Shown in pieces: positions 7,420 to 30,247 of a stretch of DNA of 33,723 bases (positions are counted from its first letter, which is position 1; each line of letters starts with the position of its first letter). Made by a program: the position numbers and the translations under genes. The notes under the pieces were generated by a model that saw nothing but the letters and a program-made list of their open reading frames with translations, did not search any database and was not told the DNA's origin. The stretch is taken from contig CAIMLY010000139.1 in assembly GCA_903842425.1 (NCBI GenBank), positions 1 through 33,723 on the forward strand, written 5' to 3'. This DNA comes from an uncultured Alphaproteobacteria bacterium (GTDB lineage Bacteria; Pseudomonadota; Alphaproteobacteria; Caulobacterales; Caulobacteraceae).

Positions 7420-8049
7420 GTGGCCGTGGCCAAGCCCCCCAAGAATGCCGAGTCGGAAGAGGTCGACCTCGAAGGCGCCGAGGGCGGTGAAGAGGCGGGC
7501 GGCAAGAAGAAGCCGCCGCTCAAGCTGATCATCATCGCCGCGGCCGCCGCCCTCCTTCTGGTGGGCGGAGGAGCGGGCGCCTACTTCGTGTTCTTCAAGA
7601 AGCCGCCGCCGCCGGCCGACGCCAAGGCCGAGAAGAAGGGCGAAGACAAGGAGAAGGGCAAGAAGAAGGACGGCGAGGGCGAGAAGAAGGATGGCGCCGC
7701 GGCGGCCGGGGACAAGGCCGTCGTTGTCACCGAGGGGCCCGACGGGGTCTTCTTCTGCGCCCTGCCCAACATGGTGGCCAACATGCAGGCCGGGGACGGC
7801 CGTCCCACCTACCTGAAGCTCAAGCTGACCCTCGAGGCGCCAGACCAGGAGACCGCCGACCTCATTCAGCCTTCCATGCCCCGGCTCCAGGACATGTTCC
7901 AGAGCTTCCTGAGGGAGCTCCGTCCAGAAGACCTCCAGGGGTCGCAGGGCACCCTTCACCTGCGTGCGGAGATCCTTCGGCGGGTCAACCTCGTGATCGC
8001 CCCGGCGCGCGTGAATTCGGTTCTGATCGAGGAGATGCTCATCAGCTAG
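7420..8049 (+). CDS. fliL: flagellar basal body-associated protein FliL
   Basis: GTG start after a caggag RBS; TM helix LIIIAAAAALLLVGGGAGAYFVFF, Lys/Glu-rich linker, C-term AEILRRVNLVIAPARVNSVLIEEMLIS; directly upstream of fliM. Confidence 0.93.
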   Translation: MAVAKPPKNAESEEVDLEGAEGGEEAGGKKKPPLKLIIIAAAAALLLVGGGAGAYFVFFKKPPPPADAKAEKKGEDKEKGKKKDGEGEKKDGAAAAGDKAVVVTEGPDGVFFCALPNMVANMQAGDGRPTYLKLKLTLEAPDQETADLIQPSMPRLQDMFQSFLRELRPEDLQGSQGTLHLRAEILRRVNLVIAPARVNSVLIEEMLIS

Positions 8050-8077
8050 CCCCCGGGCGCGGCTGGGCTTTGACGCC

Positions 8078-9145
8078 ATGACGGACACGAACGACATTTC
8101 ATCGAGTGCAGAGGAGGGCTGGGGCCGCAGCGAGTCCTCGGAGGGCCTCTCCGGCGCCGAGCGCATCCTGAACCAGGATGAGATCGACAGTCTCCTCGGG
8201 TTCGACCTCTCGGGTGATGACGCCTCCGAGCGCAACGGCATCCGCGCCATCATCAATTCCGCGCTGGTGTCCTACGAGCGCCTTCCCATGCTCGAGATCG
8301 TCTTCGACCGCCTCGTGCGGTACATGACGACCTCGCTGCGGAACTTCACCTCCGACAACGTCGAAGTCAGCCTCGACAGCATTTCCTCGATCCGCTTCGG
8401 GGATTACCTGAACTCCATTCCCCTTCCGGCCATCCTGGCCGTCGTGAAGGCCGAGCAGCTCGAGAACTATGGCCTACTCACGGTGGACTCCAACCTCATC
8501 TACTCCATCGTCGACGTCCTGCTCGGCGGGCGTCGCGGCACCGCGGCCATGCGGATCGAGGGGCGCCCCTACACCACCATCGAGCGGGTCCTTGTGCAGA
8601 GGATGGTCGAGGTCGTGCTGGCGGACGCCAAGCTGGCCTTCGAGCCGCTGACTCCCGTCACCTTCACCCTGGACCGGCTGGAGACCAACCCCAGGTTCGC
8701 CGCCATCGCCCGTCCGGCCAACGCCGCCATCCTCGTCAAGCTCAGGATCGACATGGAGGACCGGGGCGGGCGCATCGAGCTGTTGCTGCCCTACGCCACG
8801 CTCGAGCCGATCCGGAAAATGCTGCTCCAGCAGTTCATGGGTGAAAAGTTCGGCCGGGACAACATCTGGGAGGGTCACCTCGCGACCGAGCTCTGGACCA
8901 CCCAGATGGACATCCGCGCCGTTCTGGACGAGCAGCAGCTGCCGCTCCAGACCGTCCTTAATCTCAAGGTGGGCGACACCCTGATGCTCAACGCCTCGCC
9001 AGACACGCCGGTCGAGCTGCGCGCCGGGACCGTCCACCTGACCACCGCCCGGATGGGGCGGCGGAACCACCAGATCGCCGTTCGCGTCGAGGCGCCCCTC
9101 ACCCGGACCGCCCGCCGCGCCGTGCAGGAGATGACCAGCCCATGA
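8078..9145 (+). CDS. fliM: flagellar motor switch protein FliM
   Basis: LNQDEIDSLLGF N-terminal motif; LPMLEIVFDRLVRYMTTSLRNFTSDNVEVSLDSISSIRFGDYLNSIPLPAILAVVKAEQLENYGLLTVDSNLIYSIVDVLLGG. Confidence 0.97.
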   Translation: MTDTNDISSSAEEGWGRSESSEGLSGAERILNQDEIDSLLGFDLSGDDASERNGIRAIINSALVSYERLPMLEIVFDRLVRYMTTSLRNFTSDNVEVSLDSISSIRFGDYLNSIPLPAILAVVKAEQLENYGLLTVDSNLIYSIVDVLLGGRRGTAAMRIEGRPYTTIERVLVQRMVEVVLADAKLAFEPLTPVTFTLDRLETNPRFAAIARPANAAILVKLRIDMEDRGGRIELLLPYATLEPIRKMLLQQFMGEKFGRDNIWEGHLATELWTTQMDIRAVLDEQQLPLQTVLNLKVGDTLMLNASPDTPVELRAGTVHLTTARMGRRNHQIAVRVEAPLTRTARRAVQEMTSP

Positions 9146-9669
9146 TTACCACTCTCCTCAACCTCCTTCTTGCGGGGCTCCTCTGCGGCGCCCTGGGAAT
9201 GGGCTGGCGCCTGAACCAGCGCCTCAAGGTCCTGCGGGAAGGCCAGATGGGCTTCTCCAAGGCCGTGGCGGACCTCGACGCCGCCGCCGCCCGGGCCGAG
9301 CGCGGCCTCGCCGACCTGAAGGCCGCGAGCGACGAGATGGCCGAGGTCCTGGTCTCCCGGATCGAGCGGGCGCGGATCCTGGCGTCCAAGCTTGACCAAC
9401 AGTTCGAAGCCGGAGCCCGGGCAGGTCTTGCCCTGGATTCCCGGGACCCTGAGGCTTCCGAGGCGGACATCGAGCGCCTCAGCCGGAACCTCGGCTCGCT
9501 CCTGGCCCAGAGCCGGGAGGTGCGCGCAAAGGCGCGGGAGCCCGTTGAGGCGCCTGTCCGTCGCGCTCCTGTCGGGGTCCGACGGCGGCCTGAGTTCGAG
9601 GATGACCTCTTCCTCGGGGGAGGCGCCGAGCCGGCCGCCCGGGCGGCGTTCGCCGGAGCGCGCCGATGA
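9142..9669 (+). CDS. DUF6468-type flagellar-cluster protein
   Basis: ATGA overlap with fliM; N-terminal TM (LLNLLLAGLLCGALGMGWRLNQRLKVLREGQ) and coiled-coil-like region; position between fliM and the motE-like gene. Confidence 0.7.
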   Translation: MITTLLNLLLAGLLCGALGMGWRLNQRLKVLREGQMGFSKAVADLDAAAARAERGLADLKAASDEMAEVLVSRIERARILASKLDQQFEAGARAGLALDSRDPEASEADIERLSRNLGSLLAQSREVRAKAREPVEAPVRRAPVGVRRRPEFEDDLFLGGGAEPAARAAFAGARR

Positions 9670-10478
9670 GCGGCATGCCCCGGATCCTCCCTCTGATCGG
9701 CGTTGCAGCCGGCGGCGTCCTCGCCCTGAACGCCCTGTCGGGTGTCAATGGCGCCCAGGACCTGTTCTCTGGCGCCAGGGCCTTTGCCCAGGATGTCGCC
9801 GCCCAGGCCGGGGCCGCTCCGGCCGCTTCCAAGCCGGGTGAGCCCAAGCCGGCGGACGCCAAGGCCGGAGAGGCCAAGCCTGGCGAAGGCGGCGCGGCGC
9901 CTGCACCGGCCAAGCCCCTGGTCTGCGCCCCTACCGCAGCCGAGCTCGCCAAGGAGGCCGGCCTGTCGCCGGCCGAACTCCAGATCCTGCAAAGCCTGGG
10001 GACCCGTCGGGGTCAGCTGGACCAGCGCGAGGCCGACTTCAGCACCCAGCTCGCCCTGCTGGCGGCCGCGGAGGCGAAGCTGGACGCCAAGGTGAAGACC
10101 CTCAACGGCCTCAAGTCTGACATCCAGGGCCTGCTCCGGGTCGGAGACGAACAGGAGGCCGCCGAGGTCGCCCGGATGGTCAAGGTCTTCGAGTCCATGA
10201 AGCCGCGGGACGCCGCGCCGCGCATGATGCTCCTGGCGGACTCGGTCCGCCTGCCCATCGCCGCCAAGATGAAGGAGAAGTCCCTGGGACTCATCCTGGC
10301 CCAGATGCCCCCGCCTGAAGCCAAGAAGCTGACCGAGTCCCTGGCCAACCGCTTTGCGCCGGTCCGTTCGGCGGCGGCGGCCTCCGGGGCCGCAGCGCCT
10401 GCAGCCCCCGCGTCGCCGCCTGCCGGGGCGCCTGCGCCTCGCGCCGCCGCTCCGGCGGCCCAGCCCGGTCCCGCCTGA
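9666..10478 (+). CDS. MotE/MgtE-N-like flagellar motility protein (periplasmic)
   Basis: ATGA overlap with the preceding ORF; N-terminal signal/TM, Ala/Pro/Lys repeats, coiled coil, and an MgtE-N-like segment VARMVKVFESMKPRDAAPRMMLLADSVRLPIAAKMKEKSLGLILAQMPPPEAKKLTESLANRF. Confidence 0.75.
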   Translation: MSGMPRILPLIGVAAGGVLALNALSGVNGAQDLFSGARAFAQDVAAQAGAAPAASKPGEPKPADAKAGEAKPGEGGAAPAPAKPLVCAPTAAELAKEAGLSPAELQILQSLGTRRGQLDQREADFSTQLALLAAAEAKLDAKVKTLNGLKSDIQGLLRVGDEQEAAEVARMVKVFESMKPRDAAPRMMLLADSVRLPIAAKMKEKSLGLILAQMPPPEAKKLTESLANRFAPVRSAAAASGAAAPAAPASPPAGAPAPRAAAPAAQPGPA

Positions 10479-10481
10479 TCC

Positions 10482-13415
10482 ATGTCCCTGCGCCGGTCCC
10501 TGGGGTCGAGTGTCGCGGCCGTGGCGATCGCCGCCGCCGTCTCCTCGCCCATTGGCGCACAGCCCGCCGCGGTCCGCCAGGACGTGAGGGTCGGCGAGGC
10601 GGTGGACTTCACGCGCCTGGATTTCGGGCCGGGGGTCGCGACGCGCCGGGACGGCGCCACCCTGACCATCACCTTTCCTGCAGGCGCCCGTCCTGACCTG
10701 TCGAGGTTCCGGACGGCGCCCCCCCGCTGGATCGAGGCCGCCCGGGTGGCGCAGTCCGGTGGGCGGACCCAGCTTGTCCTGACCCTTGCGGAAGACGCCG
10801 ACATGCGGTCGGGCGTGGCCGACGGCGCCGCGTGGATCAACCTCTTCCCGAAGCCCGAGCCTGGTGAGCCGGCGCCCGCGGCGACCATGGCGTCCGCCGC
10901 ACCCTCGGCCGAGGCCGCCGCACCGCTGAACCGTCCAGATCCCCTTCCCAGGGGTGGGGTGGTCAAGGGCGAGGTCGCCCTCGGGCAAGGGCAGGTGGTC
11001 CTCAGCTTTCCGTTCGCGAACCCGGCCGGCGCGGCGGTGTTCCGCAGAGGGGGCGCGATCTGGGTCGTCTTTGACGCCCCGGCCCGGCTCGACATCTCCA
11101 CCTTTCCCCGGGGCCTGCGGCAGATGGCCTCTGCAGAGACCTTCCAGGGACCGGACTACGCCGCTGTCCGGATCGAGGCGCCTCCGGGGCTACCCTTCAG
11201 GGCGGAGTCTGCGGGGGCGACCTGGAGCGTCGCCCTGGGCAGGGCGCCCTCGCCGCAGAGCGCGCTTGTCCGGGTGGTCCGCGACGAGGCGGGCGGCCCA
11301 GCGGCCCTGAAGAGCGCGGTCGCCGGAGCCACCCGTGTGCTCCGGATCCCGGATCCCGTGGTCGGGGACCGGATGACCGTGGTCACCGCCCTGGGCCCAG
11401 CCAAGGGGTCGCCCCTGCGGAGGGAGTTCGCCCAGGTCAATGTCCTGCCTTCATCCCAGGGACTCGCCCTTGAGTCCTTCGTCCCGGACCTGGCGGTCAC
11501 CCATGACGGCGACGTGGTCCGCATCGGCCGGCCCGAAGGCCTGGCCCTGTCGCCGATCTCGGTGGGCTCTGCGCCCGAGGACGCCGGGCTCAACACCCCG
11601 CGCCCGGCCATCATGCCGGCCCTCATCGACCAGACCGATTGGCCGAAGACCGGTCCCGATGGCTTCCTGGCCCGGTACAACGAACTCTTCACCGCCGCCG
11701 CCCAGGAGTCCCAGAAGGGCAAGGACGCGCCCACCGCCAACCGGTTCGCCCTTGCGCGGTTCCTGGTCGGCAGCGAGCTGGCCTTCGAGGCCATCGGCGT
11801 CCTCAACGACATGGCGCGCCGGACGCCCGAAGTGCTCGAGAATCCGGAGTTCCGTGGCCTGAGGGGTATCTCGCGGGTCATGGCGCGTCGCTATGCCGAA
11901 GCTGCGACCGACTTCTCGGCGCCTATCCTGGCTTCCGACCCCTCAGCCTCGCTATGGAGGGCGTACATCTCGGCCCAGCTGGGCCAGTGGACGGAGACCC
12001 GCAACGAGTTCGCGGCCGGCGCAGAGGCCTTCAACCAGTTCTCGCCGCTCTGGAAGTCGCGGTTTGCCCGGGCCGAGGCCCAGGCCGCGCTGTCGCAGGG
12101 GGATTTCGAAGGCGCTGACAAGGCCATCCGCCTGGCGCTCGAGGATCGTGCGGGCTCCGAGGAGACCCTGTCCGTCCGCCTCCTTCAGGCGCGGCTCCTG
12201 GAGGCGCAGGGCGCCAAGGAAAGGGCGCTGCGCATCTACCAGGCGGTCGCCACCGCACCCCTTCAGTGGCTGGCCACGCCCGCCGCGCTGCGCGCCGCCC
12301 GGATCCGCCTTGATGACGGCAAGATCAACGCCATTCAGGCGGCGGACGAGATCAACGCGCTTCGCTACCGTTGGCGTGGCGATGGAACCGAGCTGGAGAT
12401 CATCCGAACCCTGGGGGGAATCTACCTGAGCCAGGGGCGCTATCGCGAGGCGCTTGAAACCCTCCGGTCGGCGGGGCGCTCCCTTCCGGACCTTCCTGAG
12501 GCGGTGCAACTCCAGGCTGACCTCAACACGTCCTTCCGCTCCCTGTTCATGGACGGCGTGGCCGACGGGCTCCAGCCCGTCCAGGCCCTGGCCCTCTTCC
12601 TGGACTTCAAGGAACTCACGCCGCTGGGGGCCGATGGCGACATGATGGTCCGCCGCCTGGTCGGTCGCCTCGTGAACGTCGACCTGCTGGAGCAGGCGGC
12701 CGAGTTGCTGAAGTACCAGACCGAGAACCGGCTGGACGGGGCGCCCAAGGCCCAGGTCGCCACCGACCTTGCGGTGATCTACCTGATGGACCGCAAGCCG
12801 GAACAGGCCCTTCAGGCGATCAACAATTCCCGCACCACCCTCCTGCCTCCGCCCATGCAGATGGAGCGTCGGCGCGTCGAGGCCCGGGCCCTGATCGCCC
12901 TCAACCGGCCCGATGACGCCATTGAACTCCTGGAGATGGACCGGACGCCCGAGGGCGAGGACCTGCGGACCGAAATCATCTGGCGACAGAAGAAGTGGCC
13001 GGCCGCCGCTGCGGCCTTCGAGCGGAGCCTCGGGGACCGTTGGCGCAACCCCGCCCCCCTGAGCCCCGAAGAGGAAGGCAAGCTCCTGCGCGCCGGAATC
13101 GCCTACAGCCTGTCCGGTGACGAGGCCGCCCTGGCCCGGCTTCGCACGCGCTTCAGCGGATTCATCGACCAGGCGCGCAATCCCGACGCCCTCCGGGTGG
13201 GACTGACCGGGGTCGAGACCGCCGAGGTCGGCGCCGCCGACTTCAGCAAGGTGACCGCTGACAACGAAGCCTTCTCGGGCTGGGTGGACAAGATGCGCAC
13301 GAAGTTCACCAAGGCCGGCCCGGCGCCGGCGGCCCCCGGGCGCCCCGCCACGGCCGCAGCGCCTCCGGCTCCGCCGTCGCCCGCCCGGCCTCCGGCGCCC
13401 GCCCGTCCAGCCTGA
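10482..13415 (+). CDS. large exported TPR-repeat protein in the flagellar operon
   Basis: 977 aa; signal peptide (MSLRRSLGSSVAAVAIAAAVSSPIGAQPA), beta-rich N-terminal segment, TPR-like helical repeats (e.g. GGIYLSQGRYREALETLRSAGRSLPDLPEAVQLQADLN), Pro/Ala-rich C-terminus; starts 3 bp after the upstream stop. Confidence 0.8.
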   Translation: MSLRRSLGSSVAAVAIAAAVSSPIGAQPAAVRQDVRVGEAVDFTRLDFGPGVATRRDGATLTITFPAGARPDLSRFRTAPPRWIEAARVAQSGGRTQLVLTLAEDADMRSGVADGAAWINLFPKPEPGEPAPAATMASAAPSAEAAAPLNRPDPLPRGGVVKGEVALGQGQVVLSFPFANPAGAAVFRRGGAIWVVFDAPARLDISTFPRGLRQMASAETFQGPDYAAVRIEAPPGLPFRAESAGATWSVALGRAPSPQSALVRVVRDEAGGPAALKSAVAGATRVLRIPDPVVGDRMTVVTALGPAKGSPLRREFAQVNVLPSSQGLALESFVPDLAVTHDGDVVRIGRPEGLALSPISVGSAPEDAGLNTPRPAIMPALIDQTDWPKTGPDGFLARYNELFTAAAQESQKGKDAPTANRFALARFLVGSELAFEAIGVLNDMARRTPEVLENPEFRGLRGISRVMARRYAEAATDFSAPILASDPSASLWRAYISAQLGQWTETRNEFAAGAEAFNQFSPLWKSRFARAEAQAALSQGDFEGADKAIRLALEDRAGSEETLSVRLLQARLLEAQGAKERALRIYQAVATAPLQWLATPAALRAARIRLDDGKINAIQAADEINALRYRWRGDGTELEIIRTLGGIYLSQGRYREALETLRSAGRSLPDLPEAVQLQADLNTSFRSLFMDGVADGLQPVQALALFLDFKELTPLGADGDMMVRRLVGRLVNVDLLEQAAELLKYQTENRLDGAPKAQVATDLAVIYLMDRKPEQALQAINNSRTTLLPPPMQMERRRVEARALIALNRPDDAIELLEMDRTPEGEDLRTEIIWRQKKWPAAAAAFERSLGDRWRNPAPLSPEEEGKLLRAGIAYSLSGDEAALARLRTRFSGFIDQARNPDALRVGLTGVETAEVGAADFSKVTADNEAFSGWVDKMRTKFTKAGPAPAAPGRPATAAAPPAPPSPARPPAPARPA

Positions 13416-22817: not shown

Positions 22818-23402
22818 TTGTCGATGAACGGATCCGCCCGGATCAACCTGTCCAGCGCCAACGTCCTTGTGGTCGATGACAATCCCCAGGCCGTGGAACT
22901 GCTCTGCGGAGTGCTCGACGGGTTTGGCATGCGCAAGTTCCGACGCGCCATAAGCTTTGAAGAGGCCAAGGAAGCCTGCACCGAGTCCGTTTTCGACCTC
23001 ATTCTCACGGACGCCCAGATGCCCGGCGTGGATGGCTACGAATTCATCCGCTGGTTGAGGCGCGCGCCCGACGAGCAGGCCAGGCTCACTCCCGCGATCA
23101 TCGTCACCGCCCACACCCGTCGCAGCCAGGTGGCGAAGGCGCGTGACTGCGGCGCCAACTTCATCATCGCCAAGCCGATCACACCCAAGGTGATCCTCGA
23201 GAGAATCATCTGGGTCGCCCAGTCGACGAGGCTCTTCATCGAGACCGAGGTCTACATCGGTCCTGACCGCCGCTTCAGGAAGGCGGGGCCGCCCGCCGAG
23301 TTCGGGATCGGTCGCCGCAAGGATGATGCCGAAACCGTCGCTGCGGCGGACACCGTCGCCAACAATTCCTCCGACGCCGAAGTCCAGGAGACCACCGCGT
23401 GA
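22818..23402 (+). CDS. response regulator (receiver domain with short basic/polar C-terminal tail)
   Basis: TTG or internal ATG (22824) start; NVLVVDDNPQAVELL, FDLILTDAQMPGVDGYEFIRWLRR, AIIVTAHT, FIIAKPITPKVILERI; C-term YIGPDRRFRKAGPPAEFGIGRRKDD; no DNA-binding output domain seen. Confidence 0.9.
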   Translation: MSMNGSARINLSSANVLVVDDNPQAVELLCGVLDGFGMRKFRRAISFEEAKEACTESVFDLILTDAQMPGVDGYEFIRWLRRAPDEQARLTPAIIVTAHTRRSQVAKARDCGANFIIAKPITPKVILERIIWVAQSTRLFIETEVYIGPDRRFRKAGPPAEFGIGRRKDDAETVAAADTVANNSSDAEVQETTA

Positions 23403-23845
23403 GCACCGTCCGAAAGTTCAGGGTCAAGACCCGTCTGGCCAGCATGATCCGGGAACCGGGCGGCATCCATGTGAGCGAGGCCCTCAAGCGGGGTGAGGAA
23501 GTGATCGCAAGCCAGATGGACGTCTGCCTTGACCAGATCGACACCTGCATCGCGCGGATCGAGACGATGTTCTCCGATCCCCAGCATGATCCGGAGGAGA
23601 TGTACCGCCTGTCGACGGACATCGTTACCCTTTGCGCCGTCCTGCCGGGTCCGGCCCTGGCCGATGTGGCCCGGTCCCTCTGTGAACTGATTGACCAGGC
23701 CAGCGAGACCGGGCGGCGAAATCCGCAGGCGGTGCAGGTCCATATTGCGTCGATGAAGCTGCTGCACCGCACGGGCCTGGACCCTCAGGCAAGCCAGGAG
23801 ATCCTCGACAGCCTCAACAAGATGGTGGCCAAGCTCGACCGGTAG
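23399..23845 (+). CDS. small helical protein coupled to the response regulator; possibly CheE-like chemotaxis protein
   Basis: 148 aa; GTG start overlapping the response-regulator stop (GTGA); MSTVRKFRVKTRLASMIREPGGIHVSEALKRGEEVI... Family assignment from recall of alphaproteobacterial CheE annotations; not verified. Confidence 0.5.
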   Translation: MSTVRKFRVKTRLASMIREPGGIHVSEALKRGEEVIASQMDVCLDQIDTCIARIETMFSDPQHDPEEMYRLSTDIVTLCAVLPGPALADVARSLCELIDQASETGRRNPQAVQVHIASMKLLHRTGLDPQASQEILDSLNKMVAKLDR

Positions 23846-25567: not shown

Positions 25568-26425
25568 TCAGACGGGGACCACGCGCTCAGGGTGGCCGGA
25601 CCACATCCAGGCCATGGAGGGGCGTGAGACCCCCAGCATCACGCCGCCCAGGGTCGGCGGGTGGATCCAGACCTGGTCCGGCGTCTGGTCCGCCCGTCGG
25701 CCCTCGGGCCGGTCGATCGTGACGCCCCCCGCCGGAATCCGGCTCTCGATGTCCATGAGGTCCGGGGCCTCGGCGAAGCCCATGTAGAAGCAGGCCCCCT
25801 CGCGGGCGTGATAGCGGCCCATGGTCTTGTCCCGGTCGATCGGCGTGATGACCTCGAAGCGGTGCAGTTGCCCGGCGCGGAAGAGGGTGAGGACCCCCGT
25901 GTACCCGAACATTTCCGAGGTGATCGTGGTGAAAACGGACTCGTCCAGGCCGAAGGCGTCCCGGATCCGCGCCACGGCGCCCGCCTGGTCCGCCGCAAGG
26001 ACGGTGGCCTCGTAGAGGAAGTCCAGTCGACCTGCCGGCGCCCGTTCGGCCTCGGGCGAAATGACGAAGCGGATGGGCGCACCCTCGATCTCGAGGGTCA
26101 CGTGGGTTCGTTCTCCCTCCGCCTCGACGGCGGCGCCAGCCGCTCGGGCGGTCTGGGCCACGGCGGCCGGGTCGGGCGAGGCCGCCCCGGCGGCCCAGAC
26201 GTGGGCGCGGCCCCGCCGGGACAGGGCGTCGGCGATGGGGCCGGCGCCATCCGGCTCCAGGAACTCGATGTCCGAGCGGCCGGCCCTGACGATCCGGCGG
26301 CGGGCTCCCAGGGCGGGCGCGGCCTCGATCCGGATGTCCTCGGCGCCGAGCACCGTGCGCCAGGTCGCGGCGGCGGCGTCGGCGTCAGGGGTCGCCACCA
26401 GCAGACGATCCACTTCGGTCAGCAT
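25568..26425 (-). CDS. VOC (glyoxalase/extradiol dioxygenase-like) family protein
   Basis: 285 aa; MLTEVDRLLVATPDADAAAATWRTVLGAEDIRIEAAPALGARRRIVRAGRSDIEFLEPDGAGPIADAL... VOC-type N-terminal module, then an apparent second module. Confidence 0.75.
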   Translation of the reverse strand: MLTEVDRLLVATPDADAAAATWRTVLGAEDIRIEAAPALGARRRIVRAGRSDIEFLEPDGAGPIADALSRRGRAHVWAAGAASPDPAAVAQTARAAGAAVEAEGERTHVTLEIEGAPIRFVISPEAERAPAGRLDFLYEATVLAADQAGAVARIRDAFGLDESVFTTITSEMFGYTGVLTLFRAGQLHRFEVITPIDRDKTMGRYHAREGACFYMGFAEAPDLMDIESRIPAGGVTIDRPEGRRADQTPDQVWIHPPTLGGVMLGVSRPSMAWMWSGHPERVVPV

Positions 26426-27894
26426 GGGTCAGGCTCCGGGTAGAGGGTTTGGAGGGGAATGCTGCGCCCGGCGGTCTCGACGATCCGGACATGCTCGCGG
26501 CCCAGTTCCCGGGCGTGCCGGCAGCCGCAGGAGTGGGCGATCATGTCGATCTCCCGGTTGAGGCTCCGGACATAGTTGAGGACCCGGGTGGCCTTGTCCT
26601 CGACCACCAGGCCCCGCTGCAGGCGGCGATTGTGGGTCGCCACGCCCGTCGGGCAGGTGTTGGTGTGGCATCGCATGGCCTGGATGCAGCCGATGGCGAA
26701 CATGAAGCCCCGGGCGGAATGGACGAAGTCCGCCCCGGTGCAGAGGGCCCAGGCGGCGCGGGCCGGGGTGACGAGCTTGCCCGAGGCGATTACCCGGACC
26801 CGGTCCTTCAGTCCCGCCTCCCGGAGGGCGTCGACCACCATCGGCAGGGCCTCGGCGATGGGCAGGCTCATGTGATCCATCAGGGTCTGGGGCGCCGCAC
26901 CCGTCCCGCCCTCGCCGCCGTCGACGGTCAGGAAGTCGGGTGCGTCCTGAGCGCCACGCCGCCTGACCGCTTCGCAGAGTTCCGTCATGAAGCGTTCGTC
27001 GCCAAGCGCGGTCTTGACCCCGACGGGCCGGCCGGTCAGGTCGCGCAGGCTGCAGACCCTGTCCAGCAGCTGGTCGACATTGGCGATGTCCGGGTGACGG
27101 TTGGGGCTGATGGAATCCTGCCCCTCGGGGATTCCCCGGATCCGTGCGATCTCCGCTGTCACCTTCGCGCCGGGGAGAACCCCGCCCTTCCCGGGTTTGG
27201 CGCCCTGGCTGAGCTTGATCTCGAAGGCCTTGACCGACCGAGCGATCTCCCTGGCGCTCTCCGGCGAGAAGGAACCGTCGGCATCGCGCACCCCGTAGCG
27301 GGCGGTCCCGACCTGCATGATCAGGTCGCAGTCCCCTTCGAGGTGGTAGGGGGAAAGCCCGCCTTCGCCGGTGTCCATCCAGCAGCCCGCCATGCCGGCG
27401 CCGCGGGAGAGGGCCTGCACGGCCGGCCGCGAGATGGCGCCAAAGCTCATCCCGGAGATGTTGACGATCGAGCGGGCGAGGAAGGGCTGCTCGCAGCTCC
27501 CCTCGCCGATCAACAGGGGCGGGGTCGGGAGCCTGTCTTCCTCCAGGACCGGAAAGGGGTGATTGACGAAGAGGACGGTCCCGGGCTCCCGCCGGTCGTT
27601 CGTCGATCCGAAGCCGATGGCCCCGCCCTCGTTCTTCGCCTCGCGGTAGATCCAGGACCGGGTCGCCCTGTTGAAGGGCATTTCCTCCCGGTCGCTGGCG
27701 AAGAAGTACTGCCTGAAGTACTCGCCCAGCTGCTCAAGCCAGTAGCGAAGGCGCCCGATCACCGGGAAGTTGCGGAGCACCGAGTGCTTCTGCTGGGTCA
27801 GGTCGTAGACCAGGAGGCCGGCCAGCAGGACGGCGAGCACGAACCCGGCCAGGACGCCGGCGCTCTGGGTCAGGACGCCTGCAATCCACCCCAT
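26419..27894 (-). CDS. FMN-binding glutamate synthase family protein (GltB-like domain), N-terminally membrane anchored
   Basis: 491 aa; N-term TM (GVLAGFVLAVLLAGLLVYDL); NISGMSFGAISRPAVQALSRGAGMAGCWMDTGEGGLSPYHLEGDCDLIMQVGTARYGVRD, KLSQGAKPGKGGVLPGAKVT, TVDGGEGGTGAAPQTLMDHM, CHTNTCPTGVATHN. Stop overlaps the downstream VOC start. Confidence 0.93.
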   Translation of the reverse strand: MGWIAGVLTQSAGVLAGFVLAVLLAGLLVYDLTQQKHSVLRNFPVIGRLRYWLEQLGEYFRQYFFASDREEMPFNRATRSWIYREAKNEGGAIGFGSTNDRREPGTVLFVNHPFPVLEEDRLPTPPLLIGEGSCEQPFLARSIVNISGMSFGAISRPAVQALSRGAGMAGCWMDTGEGGLSPYHLEGDCDLIMQVGTARYGVRDADGSFSPESAREIARSVKAFEIKLSQGAKPGKGGVLPGAKVTAEIARIRGIPEGQDSISPNRHPDIANVDQLLDRVCSLRDLTGRPVGVKTALGDERFMTELCEAVRRRGAQDAPDFLTVDGGEGGTGAAPQTLMDHMSLPIAEALPMVVDALREAGLKDRVRVIASGKLVTPARAAWALCTGADFVHSARGFMFAIGCIQAMRCHTNTCPTGVATHNRRLQRGLVVEDKATRVLNYVRSLNREIDMIAHSCGCRHARELGREHVRIVETAGRSIPLQTLYPEPDPC

Positions 27895-27907: not shown

Positions 27908-29020
27908 TCAGGACTCGACCGTGGCGATGTTCTGCTCGAAGTCCTTCAGGATATCGAGCACCTCGTCGATCGGCGCCGCAAGGGAGCGGGCGTCCGGGAA
28001 GCGATACCGCCAGAAGCTGGTGATGTGGGAGATGACGCCGATCCGTTCACCGAGCATCAGGAACATCTTGGGCGCCCGCAACAGGAAGTTCCGGAACGCC
28101 AGGGGCTTCCCGTTCTTGGTCAGGTCTGCGAAGGCGCGGTCGTAGACATCCAGGGCCTCGGTGACCTCACGTCGCTTGTGGTCGACGGTATCCACCAGGC
28201 GCCGGCGCGTCCGGTCGATGTAGGCCATCAGCTCCGGGTCCTTGTGCCCCGTGACGCGGATCTGGGGCATCTCGCGCAGCACGTCGACCAGCTTGGGCCA
28301 AAGGTCGTTGAGGACCCACTTGTAGTAGAGGAAGCCCTTCCAGCTGAAGACCCCCTCCCTGTAGTCCTCGCCTTCCAGGCGGAGGGCGATCCGCAGTGGT
28401 TCCAGATGGTCGTTGATCTCGGTGGACAGAAGGACCTGGACGAGCTTGCTGGAGTAGCTCGAAGCCTCGCCGGCGCTGGCGTAGGTCAGGCGGATGAGAT
28501 TGTTGATCTCCATCGCCACGAAGTCCTGCATCCTCGAAAGGTCCGCCTCGGAAATGGCGAAGTAGCAGGCGGCGATATGGATACCGCGCCGGTTGAGGTG
28601 CTCCCTGAGCAGGAAAGGGTCCAGGGACGGAATCTCGTCGATCAGGCTCAGGACCCGGATGTCCCTTTCGACATCGGGCGCATCTCCGGCGGTCTCGCGG
28701 ACAATGTCGCGCCATCCCCGCTGACCCACGAAGAACGAACGCCCGCCCATCCTCAGGTCAGAGCGTTCAAAGGGCAGGATGATCTTGGTGGAATTCTGCC
28801 GCTCGTCATCGAACACGAACCGCTCGTCCGCGCGCACCCGGTGCTTGAGGACGAGGCATTCATTCAGCAGCGGCGTCGTGAAGAAGGGGCGCTGAAAATA
28901 GGCGGGGTCGCCCTTGTTGCCATTTGCGATCGCCACGAGGTTGAGCACCCGGCTCGTGGAGGCGGTCCGCTGAAGGGCTCCGAGGTTCCGCACGGACCTG
29001 TCGGTTGACGCCTGCCGCAT
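27908..29020 (-). CDS. Uncharacterised protein, tandem paralog A
   Basis: Likely ATG start 29020 (MRQASTDRSVRNLGALQRTASTSRVLNLVAIANG), aligning with paralog B MRKNANVDRTVRDLGQIEKSASSSRVLNLLAVSNL; ORF-track GTG start 29041 adds 7 aa. No family recognised. Confidence 0.85.
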   Translation of the reverse strand: MRQASTDRSVRNLGALQRTASTSRVLNLVAIANGNKGDPAYFQRPFFTTPLLNECLVLKHRVRADERFVFDDERQNSTKIILPFERSDLRMGGRSFFVGQRGWRDIVRETAGDAPDVERDIRVLSLIDEIPSLDPFLLREHLNRRGIHIAACYFAISEADLSRMQDFVAMEINNLIRLTYASAGEASSYSSKLVQVLLSTEINDHLEPLRIALRLEGEDYREGVFSWKGFLYYKWVLNDLWPKLVDVLREMPQIRVTGHKDPELMAYIDRTRRRLVDTVDHKRREVTEALDVYDRAFADLTKNGKPLAFRNFLLRAPKMFLMLGERIGVISHITSFWRYRFPDARSLAAPIDEVLDILKDFEQNIATVES

Positions 29021-29052
29021 TTCGCTTTTCCCCACCGCCACATCGTCCCGCG

Positions 29053-29062
29053 CCTGCGCAGG
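29053..29062. repeat. Perfect 10-bp palindrome CCTGCGCAGG upstream of paralog A
   Basis: Self-reverse-complementary sequence in the 114-bp gap between paralogs B and A. Confidence 0.6.
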
Positions 29063-29134
29063 AAGGTGTGATTCCGGTTCCGTTCATGGCCAGGGTAAGG
29101 CAGAGAGCCTGACATTAGGTTAAGCGCGCAGCGG

Positions 29135-30247
29135 TCAGCCGTCGCCGCCCAAGACGTATTCGAAATCCCGGACGATCTCAAACAGTTCGTCCGGCGATAT
29201 GGGCTCCATGCCGCCTTCGGGAAACCGGAACCGCCAGTAGCTTGCGACGTGGGACAGCGCGCCCATCCTCTCCCCGATCAGGATGAACATCTCCGGGGTC
29301 CGCTTCAGGAAGTTTGCAAACGCCAGGGGCTTGCCGTTGCGGGTCAGGTCGTTGAAGGCGGCCTCGTAGACGCGGATGGCGCCGACGACCTCCTCCATGA
29401 CGGAATTGACCCGGCTCACGAGACGACGCCGCGCCCTGTCCAGGAGCTGGCTCATGTCCCGGTCGCGGAATCCATGGGTTCGCATCGCCAGGACCTCGCG
29501 CAGGAACGGCCCGAGCTGGGGACGGACTTCGCTGAGCACCCACTGGTAATAGAGGAACCCCTTCCAGGCGAAGATGCCCTCTTCGAAGTCCTCCGGTTCC
29601 AGGCGCAGGGCGACCCGTATGGGATTGATGGCCTCTCCTGGATTCGAGTTGAGCAGAACGCGGATCATCCGATTCGACCAACTTGAACCATCGAGCCTGT
29701 TCCTCTGGGATAAATCCAGGAGAACCTCGATCTGTTTTCCGACGAAGCCTTGCATCTTCAAGATGTCGGACTCGGAGATCGCGAAATAGCTGCTTGCGAT
29801 CGAGAGTCCCCGCCTCTTCAGCTGCTCTCTCACCAGGAAGGGGTCCAGGGACGGCAATTCGTTGAGGGCGCGCAGGACGGCGATGTCGCGCTCGGGATTG
29901 CGATAGGCGCCACAGATGTCTTCGATGACGTCGAGCCAGCCCCTCTGTTCCACCAGGAAGGACCGGCCCCCGATCTTCAGGTCGGTGCGTTCGAAGGGCA
30001 GGATGACCTTCGTCCCCGTGGACTTTCCTTCCGGCAGGAGCCCGACCTCGTCGGCGCGAATACGGTGTTTGATTATGAGACTCTCATTGAGCCGCGGGGA
30101 GGTGAAGAAGGGCTGTTCCGAATAGCTGGGTTCATTTCGGGACAGGTTCGAAACCGCCAGCAGATTCAGGACGCGGCTCGAGGAGGCCGACTTCTCGATC
30201 TGTCCAAGATCGCGAACCGTACGATCAACATTGGCGTTCTTGCGCAT
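29135..30247 (-). CDS. Uncharacterised protein, tandem paralog B
   Basis: 370 aa; aligns along its whole length with paralog A: SLDPFLVREQLKRRGLSIASSYFAISESDILKMQ and NGKPLAFANFLKRTPEMFILIGERMGALSHVASYWRFRFP match SLDPFLLREHLNRRGIHIAACYFAISEADLSRMQ and NGKPLAFRNFLLRAPKMFLMLGERIGVISHITSFWRYRFP. Confidence 0.88.
   Translation of the reverse strand: MRKNANVDRTVRDLGQIEKSASSSRVLNLLAVSNLSRNEPSYSEQPFFTSPRLNESLIIKHRIRADEVGLLPEGKSTGTKVILPFERTDLKIGGRSFLVEQRGWLDVIEDICGAYRNPERDIAVLRALNELPSLDPFLVREQLKRRGLSIASSYFAISESDILKMQGFVGKQIEVLLDLSQRNRLDGSSWSNRMIRVLLNSNPGEAINPIRVALRLEPEDFEEGIFAWKGFLYYQWVLSEVRPQLGPFLREVLAMRTHGFRDRDMSQLLDRARRRLVSRVNSVMEEVVGAIRVYEAAFNDLTRNGKPLAFANFLKRTPEMFILIGERMGALSHVASYWRFRFPEGGMEPISPDELFEIVRDFEYVLGGDG

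Follow-up and report, generated by a model that had tools for sequence, protein, structure and literature searches.

Caulobacter is the main model for surface sensing, in which two questions concern the mode of action of Cle proteins at the motor and the way in which many CheY-like proteins share the input from c-di-GMP. CleD (CC3100), a CheY-like effector of the flagellar motor, binds c-di-GMP and FliM (Nesper et al. 2017, PMC5677366). The gene singled out here, CC3101, lies beside cleD; its product (NP_421895) was described in 2007 as a 'hypothetical' protein and a signature of the Caulobacterales (Gupta and Mok 2007, PMC2241609), and our search of the literature on CC3101 function found no paper. 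The Caulobacter proteins FssA, FssB, and FssF, which are tied to flagellum-dependent attachment, share with the CC3101-type family the status of uncharacterised proteins; FssA and FssB carry Sec signals, and FssF is FliN-like (PMC7885107, PMC11580411). CC3101 is none of these three, since their published loci (CC_1064, CC_2058, CC_2175) differ from it.

The link between CC3101 and cleD was established by position. At 32 loci, mostly from Caulobacter and its relatives, a CheY-like regulator of ~265 aa with an arginine-rich (ARR) tail of the c-di-GMP-binding class (ARR-CheY) lies directly downstream of a family gene, on the same strand and at a distance of 9–289 bp. Upstream of the family gene in these loci is purA, sometimes with a hybrid histidine kinase gene, and rpoH (CC_3098) lies further downstream. 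The regulator in C. vibrioides DSM 9893 has 269 aa, with R113, R156, and R169 and the ARR at 142–173, which is exactly the numbering published for CleD (PMC5677366). Therefore the adjacent single-copy family gene, immediately upstream of cleD in C. vibrioides-type loci, is CC3101.

The window (the whole stretch of 33,723 nucleotides analysed here, contig C139 of a fragmented, Phenylobacterium-like genome of 2.57 Mb) contains two genes, denoted A and B (Table 1), of the family to which CC3101 is assigned by position. This locus differs from that of CC3101, which is single-copy in Caulobacter, in holding two copies and in lying beside popZ-tolC-PCMT and not purA-cleD. An earlier note made from the sequence alone had described A and B as full-length tandem paralogs, and the pair proved real: both are intact minus-strand open reading frames separated by 93–114 bp, and their products are identical at 179/361 residues (50%) and 75% similar with no gaps (BLASTP, E 4e-140). 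The identities counted by hand in that note also stand, at 26/41 for the SLDPFL block and 26/43 for the NGKPLAF...RFP block. The ATG start of B was adopted because it matches the N-termini of homologues better than the upstream GTG.

Table 1 Features of the window at and near the A/B pair.
Feature	Position	Strand	Description
CheY-like response regulator	22818..23402	+	C-terminal ARR-type tail YIGPDRRFRK...FGIGRRKDD; Response_reg E 1.5e-22
148-aa protein	23399..23845	+	unknown family; start overlaps the regulator's end by 4 bp
Glutamate-synthase-domain protein	26419..27894	-	Glu_synthase E 3e-93; 13 bp downstream of B, same strand
Copy B	27908..29020 (29041 from GTG)	-	370 aa from ATG 29020, 377 aa from GTG 29041; ancestral-like paralogue
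Copy A	29135..30247	-	370 aa, ATG start; open frame; derived paralogue in the CC3101-type family, fast-evolving

As the earlier note had held, the two proteins belong to a family of unknown kind. In Pfam and NCBIfam neither A nor B scored above the curated cut-offs, and PHROG and PADLOC gave no convincing match (the NCBIfam and PADLOC comparisons covered A and B only). A family alignment of 31 rows gave only scattered, chance-level matches in Pfam and PHROG, and neither A and B themselves nor the family profiles had a convincing match among PDB sequences. Remote homology by profile or fold was rejected, as only coiled-coil and helical matches at chance level were obtained. A defence system was likewise rejected, PADLOC having no match for A or B. 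A phage or mobile-element origin was rejected too, with no phage matches and with plasmid matches only on Asticcacaulis and Azospirillum replicons. The Asticcacaulis copies are labelled 'hypothetical protein' in RefSeq, and those on plasmids sit between SURF1 and peptidase genes.

The AlphaFold models of A (pLDDT 87, pTM 0.87) and B (80 sequences; pLDDT 89, pTM 0.86) both predict a small N-terminal alpha/beta part with strands near 57–62, 77–84, and 94–98, and then a helical domain that includes three long helices at ~218–254, 263–304, and 307–341. Foldseek searches of both models against the PDB returned nothing at E < 0.001, and the A model had no match among viral structures (BFVD). The analysis describes a protein family without annotation, with a confidently predicted fold and no PDB counterpart. 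The absence of transmembrane helices and signal peptides claimed by the earlier note held, the maximum 19-residue Kyte-Doolittle means being 0.83 and 1.09 for the two proteins. The family probably consists of soluble, cytoplasmic proteins, and its fold is probably new.

The CC3101-type family was found by profile search in 55 of 385 alphaproteobacterial genomes, and it ranges far past the order of which CC3101 was listed as a signature. B (E 2e-118) and A (E 7e-109) both match the profile, in which the two sequences are themselves included. Full-length homology and a conserved core (F48, N54, K60, T79, GG93-94, D121, PSLDPFL, and WKG) are shared by A and B in alignments of 31 and 80 rows, and the columns invariant across 31 diverse members include F48, N54, K60, T79, G93, D121, P132, and W228 (A numbering). 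Weak partial profile matches at about positions 110–300 in G128, G380, G187, and other genomes point to a more distant subfamily outside the tree. Family-positive genomes often hold two to five dispersed copies, and G014 holds eight. A tandem pair is not typical of the family, most genomes having single or dispersed copies.

The locus was sought in the contigs of the best 80 of 503 relatives. Among these, the tandem pair is shared by seven close relatives (L032–L035 and L037–L039), and none of the seven relatives whose contig spans both positions has lost either copy; the contig of L036 ends before the second. Two further relatives, L040 and L044, have a single family gene there, flanked by the PCMT gene (beyond which lie tolC and a popZ-family gene) and the glutamate-synthase-domain gene. 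In the phylogenetic tree the A copies form a clade (support 100) on a long stem (0.85), and the L044 copy falls with the B copies. The single-copy syntenic proteins of L044 and L040 share 67–73% identity with B and 45–49% with A. Across eight species, pairwise identity averages 78% in A and 90% in B, with median dN/dS values of 0.14 and 0.06, respectively. On the basis of these identities, dN/dS values, and tree, the window pair is a clade-specific duplication in which both copies are under purifying selection, B being slow and ancestral-like and A fast and derived. Tandem pairs also occur in L041/L045, L058, L004, and L020. Those of L041/L045 and L004 look like separate duplications, and the two copies of L020 are not sisters in the tree.

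The duplicate could in principle be a transient, recent copy without function, as the duplication is clade-specific, tandem copies arose several times in the family, and an extra copy in G014 is interrupted by two in-frame TAG stops. We consider this very improbable, and indeed refuted, by the intact frames of A and B, their divergence to 47–50% identity within each genome, and the purifying selection on both. The G014 case concerns two further copies (L197, G014:C1:1327000-1346000) at 7558–8679 and 11542–12666, ~3 kb apart, one of them being the copy with the stops, and therefore decay of extra family copies does occur.

The earlier note had also proposed that retention of two diverged copies reflects either subfunctionalisation or a hetero-oligomer. 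Retention itself is borne out by the purifying selection and by the presence of both copies in every relative whose contig covers both positions. This conservation, together with the shared strand and short spacing of A and B and the long predicted helices, which could form an interface, would also be expected if A and B made an obligate hetero-oligomer in which A was retained only as the structural partner of B. However, one copy is enough in Caulobacter, L040, and L044, and non-synonymous change has been about twice as fast in A as in B, which makes this arrangement quite improbable. With B ancestral-like and A on a long stem, the divergence is asymmetric, and a change of function in A accounts for it better than symmetric subfunctionalisation does. 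A is a tandem duplicate of B that diverged quickly once formed and has since been retained, a pattern that would be expected if it had acquired a second partner or function.

The earlier note, whose reading is partly supported overall, missed a connection to c-di-GMP-type CheY regulators. Beyond the Caulobacter-type loci, an ARR-CheY gene lies 18 bp downstream of the family gene in L155 and 3 bp downstream in L181, and in L145 it is convergent with the family gene with a 4-bp overlap. In L091, a homologue of the window regulator and an overlapping companion protein lie downstream of a single-copy family member, and in L192 the family gene is the last in a same-strand row cheY-cheA-cheW-cheB-cheR. 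Three family/ARR-CheY pairs within 1.5 kb were seen in the sample, against 0.32 expected by chance (p 0.004); two of the three are orthologous, and counting two gives p 0.04. Outside Caulobacter, most family genes have no chemotaxis gene beside them. An apparent fusion of a kinase with a family gene in L069 was rejected, because the long open reading frame overlaps a separate kinase gene in the wrong frame.

In the window, an ARR-CheY gene is located ~4 kb from the A/B pair on the opposite strand. It encodes a receiver domain followed by an intact first ARR motif (YIGPDRR) and a degenerate second one (FGIGRRK), and matches the ARR profile at 23226–23330 (E 2.8e-14, the sequence itself being in the profile). 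This regulator is likely a functional associate of A and B outside the pair. A companion gene (product of 148–157 aa) shares a 4-bp overlap with the end of the ARR-CheY gene in the window and also in L091 (10170–10643) and L037 (10199–10645). Flagellar genes, including fliM, occupy ~4–18 kb of the window (those other than fliM were named by eye). Just downstream of fliM, a 977-aa TPR protein is encoded at 10482–13415 (+); the 270-aa product of 9666–10478 (+) has no Pfam match. The TPR protein resembles Caulobacter FssB (CC_2058, a stator-activity factor with a Sec signal and TPR) in type and position, which makes it a tentative lead.

The pair itself runs into metabolic genes, and its immediate surroundings bear on another explanation, in which the family has a general role as a cytoplasmic adaptor or scaffold in alphaproteobacterial signalling or metabolism. 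The ARR-CheY link would then come down to common ancestry and a few chance neighbours, and the window pair would serve its own operon of a glutamate-synthase-domain protein, a VOC/epimerase-like protein, and an acyl-CoA ligase. The glutamate-synthase-domain gene starts 13 bp after the end of B in the same orientation, and this order is kept in those Phenylobacterium relatives whose contig reaches that far; co-transcription of the two genes is possible. In agreement with a general role, most distant copies have unrelated neighbours. Two-component genes in general are also not enriched beside the family, a candidate association that was rejected (histidine-kinase/receiver genes at 9/215 near versus 11/419 far, p 0.34). 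However, the copies in Caulobacter and other lineages lack these metabolic neighbours, the adjacency to ARR-CheYs recurs in separate lineages, and the co-occurrence described below survives adjustment for genome size. We thus regard a general adaptor as a real though doubtful possibility.

In the 385 genomes of the family search, FliM was found in 213, and a 33-position profile of the ARR tail had matches in 163. ARR proteins were found in 49 of the 55 family-positive genomes versus 114 of the 330 family-negative ones (odds ratio 15.5, p 1e-14), in tests that correct for shared ancestry only partly, use lists transcribed by hand, and include some incomplete genomes. The association held within FliM-positive genomes (odds ratio 7.8, p 1.5e-6; ~6 and p 8e-5 after adjustment for genome size) and within FliM-negative ones (odds ratio 26, p 9e-4). 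At the level of taxonomic families, ARR proteins were present in 30 of 31 family-positive groups (p 3e-9). A purely flagellar association was rejected, being weaker than that with ARR proteins and not significant once ARR was fixed (family versus FliM within ARR-positive genomes, p 0.054). Two genomes from the window's own taxonomic family (G063 and G278) have ARR-CheYs and FliM without a family member. The family is thus not needed for ARR-CheYs, and any role would therefore be modulatory or lineage-dependent.

We tentatively prefer, at somewhat short of an even chance, a reading in which ARR-type CheY regulators (the Cle proteins, CleD among them) have in this family an accessory or adaptor partner for the control of motility or the surface switch. 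The analysis shows the homology, gene adjacencies, genome co-occurrence, predicted fold, and selection on both copies; the role is inferred from the adjacencies, the co-occurrence, and the selection. The likeness to the Cle system (PMC5677366) lies in genomic neighbours and in co-occurrence with ARR-type CheYs. Unlike Cle proteins, A and B have neither a receiver domain (no Response_reg match) nor an ARR tail (no tandem [YF]xGP[DE][RK]R motif), and they would be partners rather than members. The family would help c-di-GMP or chemotaxis signals reach the flagellar motor or the attachment programme by physically binding an ARR-CheY, in this genome perhaps the regulator of Table 1; the direction of regulation is likewise presumed. 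If this is true, A and B would extend a known system, the control of the motor by c-di-GMP and CheY proteins.

A non-flagellar output was considered because the family and ARR-CheYs also occur together in genomes in which FliM was not found. Five genomes (G239, G376, G314, G099, and G151, some of the genomes being incomplete) have a family member and ARR proteins with no FliM found, a pairing that suggests such an output. A broader reading, which we judge rather unlikely, is that the family forms a new-fold partner class of c-di-GMP-binding CheYs, placed between the second messenger and the motor or a non-flagellar output, with A and B differing in specificity. In a separate 3.7-Mb alphaproteobacterial genome (G044), where no FliM was found, there are ten ARR-tail matches, and the c-di-GMP-type CheYs of this bacterium may have a role other than at a flagellum.
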